Assembly (NCBI RefSeq): GCF_003336245.1
Contig: NZ_QPHM01000001.1
Location: 1,302,001-1,366,000 of the forward strand
Origin: Haloplanus salinus
GTDB taxonomy: Archaea; Halobacteriota; Halobacteria; Halobacteriales; Haloferacaceae
Length of the DNA: 64,000 bases
Direction of reading: 5' to 3'
In this document: positions 50,124 through 54,471 of the stretch, piece after piece
Position numbering within the stretch: position 1 is the stretch's first letter
Layout: every line of letters begins with the position of its first letter
Position numbers and translations under genes: made by a program
The notes under the pieces: generated by a model
What the model was told of the DNA's origin: nothing
The model's database searches: none
The model's input: only the letters and a program-made list of their open reading frames with translations

Positions 50124-51101
50124 ATGAACGTCGACCGCCCGCGCCGGCTCCGCCGCGACGGCGTACGCTCGCTGGTCAGCGAAACCGAACTCCGGGCGAC
50201 GGACCTGATCGCCCCCGTCTTCGTGGACGCGACGACCGACGAACGGGTGCCCATCGAGTCGATGCCGGGGCACGAACGCGTCCCCGTCCACGACGCGGTG
50301 GCGCGCGTCGAGGAAGTGCTGTCGACGGGTGTCGAGGCCGTCATGCTCTTCGGAATTCCGGAGTCGAAAGACGACGAGGGGTCGCGGGCGTGGGCCGAGG
50401 ACGGCGTCGTCCAGCGGGCGACCCGCGCCATCGGCGCCGAGACGGACGCGGCGGTCATCGCCGACGTCTGTCTCTGTGAGTACACGGATCACGGCCACTG
50501 CGGCGTCTTGGAACCGGACGCCCGCGAGGAACCGACGTTGACCGTCGACAACGACGCGACCCTCGACCGCCTCGCGCGGACCGCGGTGTCCCAGGCCGAA
50601 GCGGGCGCGGACGTAGTCGCCCCCTCCAGCATGACCGACGGGATGGTCGGGGCCATCCGGGCCGCACTCGACGACGCCGGCTTCGAGGACGTGGCGATCA
50701 TGTCCTACGCCGCAAAGTACGAGAGCGCGTTCTACGGCCCGTTCCGCGACGCTGCCGACGGGGCGCCCGCCTTCGGCGACCGGCGCCACTACCAGATGGA
50801 CCCCGCGAACGGCCGGGAGGCGCTCCGGGAGGTCCGTCTCGACGTGGAGCAGGGCGCGGACGTGCTGATGGTCAAACCCGGCCTCCCCTACCTCGACGTG
50901 GTGAGCGCCGTCCGCCGGGAGTTCGACCGCCCCGTCGCGGCCTACAACGTCAGCGGCGAGTACGCGATGCTCCACGCCGCGGCCGAGAAGGGATGGCTCG
51001 ATCTAGACGCGGTGGCGCGGGAGTCGTTGCTCGCGCTCAAACGCGCCGGGGCCGACGTGATCGTGACGTACTTCGCGGAACGGATCGCAGCCGACCGCTG
51101 A
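50124..51101 (+). CDS. hemB: Delta-aminolevulinic acid dehydratase (porphobilinogen synthase)
   Basis: This 325-residue enzyme condenses two 5-aminolevulinate molecules to porphobilinogen. Active-site lysines appear in MSYAAKYESAFYGPFR and LMVKPGLPYLD. The cysteine zinc site is present as DVCLCEYTDHGHCG, so it is a Zn-type enzyme. It starts at ATG 50124 ([13 protein letters not shown]), with a T-rich box (gggttttg) about 27 bp upstream. It lies in a haem cluster with hemL, hemC and hemD, but separated from them by the ammonium transporter gene. Confidence 0.96.
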   Translation: MNVDRPRRLRRDGVRSLVSETELRATDLIAPVFVDATTDERVPIESMPGHERVPVHDAVARVEEVLSTGVEAVMLFGIPESKDDEGSRAWAEDGVVQRATRAIGAETDAAVIADVCLCEYTDHGHCGVLEPDAREEPTLTVDNDATLDRLARTAVSQAEAGADVVAPSSMTDGMVGAIRAALDDAGFEDVAIMSYAAKYESAFYGPFRDAADGAPAFGDRRHYQMDPANGREALREVRLDVEQGADVLMVKPGLPYLDVVSAVRREFDRPVAAYNVSGEYAMLHAAAEKGWLDLDAVARESLLALKRAGADVIVTYFAERIAADR

Positions 51102-51201: not shown

Positions 51202-51309
51202 TCCTTATACAACCCTTATCTACTATTAAATCGGACGAACATCCACGGTAGCGGCCTTATTCGTTGATCTGTAAACGCCAATCCTTATACTGTGTCGTAA
51301 CGGTACGTT
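51202..51309 (+). promoter_or_regulatory. Upstream region of the ammonium transporter: duplicated TATA motif and palindrome
   Basis: The 305-bp gap after hemB is much more AT-rich than its surroundings. The 9-mer TCCTTATAC occurs twice, at 51202-51210 and 51282-51290, both placed as possible TATA boxes. Directly after the second is a perfect palindrome, AACG-GTA-CGTT (51299-51309), between the box and the expected start near 51312. That position suits a repressor site, which would fit nitrogen control. This is inference only. Confidence 0.45.
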
Positions 51310-51332: not shown

Positions 51333-51413
51333 ATGCACCAATCGTCACATAACACGAACATCTGTCCAAGCACTGACCACGAATCGTCCCGCAGCGAGGT
51401 GAGCGTATGCTGA
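51333..51413 (+). CDS. Possible 26-residue leader ORF overlapping the amt start
   Basis: ATG 51333 opens a 26-codon frame ([20 protein letters not shown] ...) that ends at TGA 51411-51413, overlapping the first codons of the transporter gene (ATG 51407). It starts about 20 nt after the predicted transcription start. Composition (Ser, His, Asn) is unlike typical halophilic proteins. It may be a leader peptide coupling translation, or simply a chance frame in the leader. Confidence 0.25.
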
Positions 51414-53068
51414 CGCCGCTCCAGATCGATCCGGCGGCGCTCGCCTCGGGCGTGAACAACGTCTGGGTGCTCACCGTCACCTTCCTGATTTTCTTCATGC
51501 ACGCCGGCTTCGCCATGCTGGAGGCGGGGCAGGTACGCTCGAAGAACGTGGCGAACCAGTTGACCAAGAACATGCTGACCTGGAGCATCGGCGTCATCGT
51601 CTACTTCCTGATCGGTGCCGGCATCTCCAGCATAGTCGGCGGCGGTGCGGACCCGTTCGGCTACATCACCGGCGGCTCCGACGTCTGGATCGGCTGGCTC
51701 TTCGGCGCCGTGTTCGCCATGACGGCGGCGACCATCGTCAGTGGGGCCGTCGCCGGCCGTGCGAAGCTCCGCGCGTACGTCACGTACACCATCGTCCTCT
51801 CGGCGGTCATCTACCCCGTCGTGACGGGACTGACCTGGGGTGGCGGCTTCCTCTCGTCGGTTCTGGGCGTCGGGTTCAGTGACTTCGCGGGCGGCATGAT
51901 CGTCCACGGCATGGGCGGTATCGCCGGCCTCACGGCCGCGTGGGTCCTCGGGCCCCGGATGGATCGCTACAACGAGGACGGGTCGGCGAACGTTATCCCC
52001 GGTCACTCGATGACCTTCGCCGTCCTCGGGACGCTCATCCTCTGTTTCGGCTGGTACGGCTTCAACGTCGGCACCGCCGCCTCGGTGTTCATCGTCGAGG
52101 AGGGCTCCGTCGCCCTCGGCGCCTTCGCCGAGACGGTCGGTCGCGTGGCGCTGACGACGACGCTGGCGATGGGTGCGGGCGCCATCGGCGCCGCAGGCGT
52201 CTCGCTGCTGCAGACCGAGAAAGTCGACACGCTGTACGTCGCCAACGGGATGCTCGCCGGTCTCGTCGGGATCACGAGCATCCCCAACCTCTCGACGTGG
52301 TGGGGGGCGCTCGTGGTCGGCCTGCTGGCCGGCGGACAGCTGCCCCTCGTCTTCAAGTTCGTCGAGAAGCGGCTCAAGATCGACGACGTCTGCGCCGTCT
52401 ACCCCGTCCACGGGAGCGCCGGCGCGATGGGGTGTATCCTACTCCCTTTCGTCTCGATCAACGGCTTCTCGACGCAGGTGCTGCTCGCACAGATCGTCGG
52501 CGTCAGCGTCATCGGCGCGTGGACCATCGTCGCGACGGCGCTGGTTTTCGGCGCCCTCAAGATGATCGGCCAGGCCCGCGTCTCCCCGGATCACGAGCGT
52601 GAGGGGCTGGACGTCGCCGAACACGGCGTCGACACCTACCCCGAGTTCGGCGACCAGCCCGAGGCAGTGCCGGACGGGGGCGACCGCGAACTCCGGACCG
52701 ACGGCGGCGAACCCGATCCCGACCGCGAGATCAAGATGATCATCGCGTACATCCGCCCGGAGAAACTCGGCGACGTGAAACAGGCCGTCGCGAGCGCCGG
52801 CGCCCCCTCGATCACCGTCACGAACGTCTCCGGTCGCGGCTCCCAACCCGCGAAGAAGGGCCAGTGGCGCGGCGAGGAGTACACGGTGGATCTACACCAG
52901 AAGGTGAAAGTCGAGTGCGTCGTCGCGGACGTCCCCGCGTCGAAAGTCGTCGACGCGATCCGCGAGGGTGCCAACACCGGCGAACCCGGCGACGGCAAGA
53001 TATTCGTCATGCCCGTCGAGAACGCCATCCAGGTTCGCACCGGGAAGCAGGGCCCCGACGCGGTCTGA
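51407..53068 (+). CDS. amtB: Ammonium transporter fused to a P-II (GlnK) domain
   Basis: This is a 553-residue fusion. Residues 1 to about 400 are an Amt channel with eleven membrane helices, the [13 protein letters not shown] segment, and the twin-histidine pore in [13 protein letters not shown] and [13 protein letters not shown] charged linker (about 401-440) leads to a complete P-II domain (444-553): [18 protein letters not shown], a T-loop GRGSQ...RGEEYTVDL with Tyr492 at the position of bacterial Tyr51, and the C-terminal [18 protein letters not shown]. GlnK normally is a separate protein that plugs Amt. Here the blocker is tethered. An internal ATG (52736) begins the P-II domain but has no ribosome binding site or TATA box. 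Confidence 0.93.

Positions 53069-53136: not shown

Positions 53137-54471
<1,335 letters not shown>

Follow-up and report, generated by a model that had tools for sequence, protein, structure and literature searches.

The window analysed here is a stretch of 64,000 nucleotides from the genome of the haloarchaeon Haloplanus salinus. Within its haem-synthesis cluster, among hemB, hemL and hemC, lies a gene that encodes an ammonium channel (Amt) and a P-II (GlnK) regulator as one polypeptide (Table 1). The frame comprises 553 codons and, as the preliminary description of this DNA had stated, runs without a stop from the channel through the linker into the P-II part. Pfam finds only two domains in the protein: Ammonium_transp (PF00909; residues 19-411, 310 bits, profile positions 1-399 of 399, above the curated cut-off) and P-II (PF00543; residues 443-547, 92 bits, profile positions 2-102 of 102, above the cut-off). 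The claim that the P-II domain is complete is borne out by this near full-length match, together with the presence of the T-loop tyrosine Y492 and the nucleotide-site residues.

Table 1 Position of the Amt-P-II fusion gene, its parts and its neighbours in the window.
Feature	Position	Strand	Description	Basis
hemB	50124-51101			
TATA-like box	51284..51289	+	CTTATA; function inferred	alignment, conserved in 11 same-genus loci
Leader ORF	51333..51413	+	26 codons, TGA overlapping amt ATG	position conserved in relatives
Shine-Dalgarno of amt start	51396..51402	+	GAGGTGA	sequence; aligned in relatives
Amt-P-II fusion gene	51407..53068	+	553 aa, ATG 51407, stop TGA 53066-53068	open frame and two Pfam domains
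Amt channel domain	51461..52639	+	residues 19-411	PF00909; aligned to E. coli AmtB; Foldseek matches AmtB, Af-Amt1
Amt cytoplasmic C-tail, conserved	52577..52651	+	residues 391-415	invariant columns
Linker	52652..52729	+	26 residues, 416-441; acidic and glycine-rich, xTDGG repeats	pLDDT, length, composition
P-II (GlnK) domain	52730..53065	+	residues 442-553, betaalphabeta-betaalphabeta	PF00543; DSSP on model
ATG of M444	52736..52738	+	within beta-strand 1; not supported as a start codon	no Shine-Dalgarno (-3.0 kcal/mol)
T-loop	52838..52894	+	residues 478-496; R488 = GlnK R47, Y492 = Y51	alignment with E. coli GlnK
hemL	53137-54471			
hemC	54507-55616			

Residues were compared with E. coli AmtB and GlnK from the MG1655 record. 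The Amt domain of the window protein keeps the residues of a conducting pore, namely the twin histidines H167 and H335, the phenylalanine gate F103 and F219, D159, W144 and W216, and the canonical pore residues are present in all or nearly all of 122 aligned fusions. Many columns of the cytoplasmic C-tail are also invariant among the fusions (R391, V392, H396, E397, G400, L401, D402, E405, H406, G407, and Y411-F414). In the P-II domain (GlnK numbering), Q39, R47, Y51, K58, T83-G-x-x-GDGK90, and R103 are kept, among them all of the ATP and 2-oxoglutarate site residues examined (Q39, K58, GDGK90, R103), while R101 is replaced by glutamine, as in almost all separate haloarchaeal GlnKs. Arg47, which corresponds to R488 in the window, is invariant in 119/119 haloarchaeal fusions and in three of three fusions from Firmicutes. 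Across the haloarchaeal fusions K58, G37, T83 and GDGK90 are likewise invariant, and Q39 is found in 118/119. The preliminary description had emphasized the T-loop tyrosine, an emphasis that the alignment does not support: residue 51 is tyrosine in 109/119 haloarchaeal fusions, phenylalanine in the other 10, and valine or isoleucine in the Firmicutes fusions, while Arg47 never varies. Judging by this alignment, Tyr51 appears to be dispensable in the fusions. The phenylalanine variants come from Halorubrum and Halobellus (L130, L133, L135, L136, L141, L153-L155, L157, and L022), and the substitution makes uridylylation at that residue impossible in them. Because Arg47 is kept in the Firmicutes fusions that lack Tyr51, the shared function would appear to be plugging and not covalent modification.

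An AlphaFold2 model of the fusion, calculated as a monomer from an input alignment of 41 fusion sequences (mean pLDDT 78.6), has a helical Amt domain and a ferredoxin-like P-II fold, in which the secondary-structure elements follow one another as expected. Its T-loop is flexible, like that of a free P-II. Residues 411-435 of the linker are predicted to be disordered (pLDDT < 50). Among relatives the linker, measured from the YPEF motif to the P-II domain, is 22-78 residues long, and its sequence is poorly conserved across the fusions. Foldseek matches the model to the sensor Amt 6eu6, to Af-Amt1, and to AmtB from its complexes with GlnK (2ns1 and 2nuu); by both sequence and fold, 6eu6 is the closest solved Amt. 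The best PDB sequence match of the P-II domain is the haloarchaeal P-II 4ozj (E 3e-54). This protein, also solved as 4ozl and 4ozn, which we take to be GlnK2 of H. mediterranei, is the closest solved P-II and has a T-loop identical in sequence to that of the fused domain; however, it is a free protein with its own N-terminal extension. The topology of the P-II fold places the N terminus on the same side as the T-loop, a position well suited to a linker arriving from the membrane. The earlier picture of a P-II domain tethered by a charged linker beside a canonical channel is thus supported by the sequence, its conservation, the individual residues and the two-domain predicted structure.

Full-length, one-frame matches without a stop are present in 29 loci of other genomes (L006-L034; 66-92% identity), fetched from among 60 relatives. 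Since a long open frame can mislead in high-GC DNA, as in L058, where a P-II frame of 599 codons does not encode Amt, we required both domains in one frame, which gave 43 fused loci. In a scan of named genomes, 76/80 loci were fused and the four exceptions were all Haloferax; the genera with a fusion include Halorubrum, Natrinema, Natrialba, Haloterrigena, Halorussus, Halobaculum, and Natronomonas, and the best match was that of Haloplanus ruber (88%). The search for long Amt proteins with a C-terminal P-II domain that had been proposed for this gene therefore returned 119 haloarchaeal loci with an uninterrupted frame, some species being counted twice because the two sets share species, and three records from Firmicutes (Monoglobus, Enterococcus raffinosus, and Ruminococcus albus). 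The Firmicutes proteins (570-601 aa, annotated as 'ammonium transporter' only) have both domains at full length and in the same order as the window protein. In contrast, they are 32-36% identical to it, lack Tyr51 and lie outside the Archaea, and presumably represent an independent fusion.

In an even draw from the phylum, 39/65 Halobacteria genomes (~60%) carry the fusion, 35 by a single full-length match and four by two matches within one frame. Among the matches listed from the same phylum outside Halobacteria none is fused, and the full-length ones have a stop between the parts. The earlier statement that Amt and GlnK are normally separate proteins has to be qualified, in that within Halobacteria fusion is the commoner state in our sample. 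In many genomes, a search with the window protein recovers no Amt besides the fusion. A P-II search identified the fused domain as the only P-II match in 37 of the 39 fused genomes. The window genome is one of the two with an additional P-II: a check for free glnK genes found an unfused amt-glnK pair as well, on the minus strand at C1:310626-312285, whose GlnK shows 71% identity. One or two extra free P-II genes directly follow the fused gene in four other loci (L059 in G032, L066 in G206, L067 in G150, and L095 in Halohasta), which would fit a soluble P-II having been acquired anew once the genes had fused. A P-II match is absent altogether from a few near-complete Halobacteria genomes (14/292 genomes).

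Trees were built by quick search. Mapped onto a tree of 75 Amt domains, the fused state requires 11 changes, at least six of which are forced by well-supported branches, and one fusion with a 78-residue linker (L050, G030:C8:99000-102100) falls within a distant clade of Amt paralogues that is otherwise split in the sample. From these sequence relationships, the amt/glnK pair appears to have switched repeatedly between the fused and split states. A single ancient, vertically inherited fusion in the main Amt clade was rejected: forcing the fusions into one group costs 364 log-likelihood units even on the best such tree (p-AU 0.0003). Whether fused or split, amt genes in many Halobacteria adjoin hemB and/or hemL, with a hemB match within the flanks examined in 76 loci and a hemL match in 96. 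Such a common neighbourhood is what recurrent fusion or fission at a fixed site would leave. In sequence, the linker resembles a split Amt tail, with its xDGG repeats, continued by the N-terminal extension seen on split GlnKs (EPNDGGIK), and so loss of the short overlap between the two genes would suffice for fusion.

Upstream, the stop of the leader ORF and the start codon of amt overlap (ATGCTGA). Leader ORFs that overlap in this way and have 12 codons or more were counted at 90/142 haloarchaeal amt starts, compared with 20.6 in dinucleotide shuffles (maximum 28); at hemL starts, used as a control, the count was 4/25 compared with 3.3 in shuffles. Peptide motifs recur within genera (N-x-NVCPS in Haloplanus and MD[KI]RLQ in Natrialbales relatives). 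However, the three codon positions vary equally and the peptide is not clearly under selection, so the leader is more likely to serve translational coupling or as an RNA element than to encode a functional peptide.

We propose, with a probability of roughly 0.7, that the fusion is a single-chain ammonium channel with an on-board P-II gate that would plug it under metabolite control. The sequence analysis itself establishes the single frame, the presence of both domains, the conserved pore, ligand and plug residues, the predicted disorder of the linker, the lost internal start signal described below, and the recurrence of the fusion. Trimer docking, plugging and release by 2-oxoglutarate we infer from the literature on AmtB-GlnK and Af-GlnK3. 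In haloarchaea, GlnK binds AmtB following ammonium shock (PMC3831643). In Af-GlnK3, the channel is entered by Arg47, and the fit is lost when binding of ATP and 2-oxoglutarate splays the T-loops (PMC3198391). By analogy, three fusion chains would build a membrane-embedded Amt trimer. Directly beneath it, tethered by flexible acidic linkers, the C-terminal P-II domains of the three chains would come together as a P-II trimer. When nitrogen is plentiful, with ATP/2-oxoglutarate low and ADP bound, the T-loops would insert and place Arg47 (R488) into the three pore exits, stopping uptake. Binding of 2-oxoglutarate and ATP at the base of the T-loops (Q39, K58, and the GDGK loop) would splay the loops out of register and open the pores, while the P-II trimer would remain beside the channel. 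It is a sound inference that each Amt trimer would carry its own P-II trimer and could not lose it. The separate GlnK of the window genome makes mixed trimers possible there, and this protein could join or compete with the fused P-II.

Alternatively, the fusion could be a precursor that ensures 1:1 production, with P-II mainly freed by proteolysis in the linker. The long, acidic linker, predicted to be disordered, would permit this, and its poor conservation is what motif-free cleavage would allow. Cleavage of such tails is possible, given that C-terminally Flag-tagged AmtB1 of Haloferax mediterranei was mostly cleaved and detected predominantly as a 20-kDa C-terminal fragment (PMC3831643). 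However, the published cleavage lies before the last transmembrane helix and not in the tail, the Amt in that work is not fused, and we found no conserved cleavage motif across 43 linkers. We consider release by proteolysis unlikely. It appears distinctly unlikely that the P-II domain works mainly as a platform on the membrane, recruiting or activating glutamine synthetase where the channel opens to the cytoplasm, and that plugging is only a secondary role. This reading draws on the in vitro activation of glutamine synthetase by Haloferax mediterranei GlnK (PMC3831643), on the lack of another P-II for this task in most fused genomes, and on a GS III gene directly upstream of the independent Monoglobus fusion (L075:733-4707). 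Against it, no fusion departs from Arg47, the residue that a pore plug requires, and the only Gln-synt_C gene of the window genome is distant (C1:1649765-1650772) in a genome that also has a separate GlnK.

The preliminary description had left it undecided whether the P-II part is additionally made by internal translation from ATG 52736. An in-frame ATG near the P-II boundary does occur in 39/43 fused genes. However, this methionine is part of the conserved strand-1 motif IKM[VI], and numerous split glnK genes have it too, after their true start codon; in the window it is M444, which aligns with GlnK residue 3 and not with the GlnK start. In 32 split pairs the glnK start codon overlaps or adjoins the amt stop, the overlap being 4 or 8 bases in most, and a strong Shine-Dalgarno in front of it pairs with the 16S tail at a mean of -12.7 kcal/mol (all 32 below -6). 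In contrast, when in-frame starts from the YPEF motif to the beginning of P-II are compared in the 43 fused genes, the best one averages -5.0 kcal/mol and the strand-1 methionine -3.9, compared with -2.9 for internal ATG and GTG codons of amt, and the small excess over internal codons fits a G-rich linker. ATG 52736 itself scores -3.0 kcal/mol, while the separate pair of the same genome has both the start/stop overlap and a glnK Shine-Dalgarno of -12.3 kcal/mol. We conclude from these pairing energies that the initiation signal of glnK was lost upon fusion. Translation without a Shine-Dalgarno is possible, and internal production of P-II from this codon is very unlikely. It is highly improbable that the fusion is an ammonium receptor in which Amt senses and does not transport: receptors with fused output domains exist (PMC5764959) and the nearest solved Amt is the sensor 6eu6, but P-II is an input or plug domain and not an output enzyme, the conduction residues are intact, and in many genomes the query recovers no other Amt. 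A sequencing or assembly error that deleted a stop, for which we found no point in favour, is effectively excluded, since the frame recurs uninterrupted in 119 haloarchaeal loci of numerous assemblies.

With the AmtB-GlnK pairs of E. coli (2ns1/2nuu), Archaeoglobus (Amt-GlnK), and Haloferax mediterranei (AmtB1/GlnK), the single-chain channel has its families and its pore, plug, and ligand residues in common. It differs in being one polypeptide from which P-II cannot dissociate, mostly in genomes with no other P-II. The Ks-Amt5 sensor histidine kinase (6eu6) and the Sd-Amt1 receptor (8qj3/8qj4) likewise join Amt to a cytoplasmic C-terminal domain in one chain. However, the output of Ks-Amt5 is a histidine kinase and it does not transport (PMC5764959), whereas the part fused in the window is the channel's own regulator. 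The fusion sequences themselves are not new, being widespread in public genomes, and we found no description of an Amt-P-II fusion in the open-access literature. As cited in PMC5764959, a review by Tremblay and Hallenbeck (2009) notes Amt proteins with extra domains, and an earlier mention of Amt-P-II there is possible.

In principle, then, the Amt-P-II fusion, real and recurrent as it is, amounts to a known regulatory pair made covalent. P-II is usually viewed as a soluble messenger that shuttles among several targets, and the surprising part is a membrane-tethered P-II as the sole P-II across much of an archaeal class. Because the only P-II is part of the channel in most of the fused genomes sampled, activation of glutamine synthetase, the other task known for haloarchaeal P-II (PMC3831643), would take place at the membrane or not at all. 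It is conceivable, although rather doubtful, that in much of Halobacteria one protein is both the only Amt and the only P-II, and that its signal is confined to the membrane, where the same T-loop switch would gate uptake and recruit glutamine synthetase to the exit of the pore, with no soluble P-II. As the fused genes are mostly annotated 'ammonium transporter', inventories of P-II by gene name miss them. A permanently tethered complex would be a practical sample for studies of gating without loss of the regulator, and recurrent switching between fused and split states at one locus provides ready-made comparison strains. The fused genomes offer a clean natural test of which P-II functions require the free protein.
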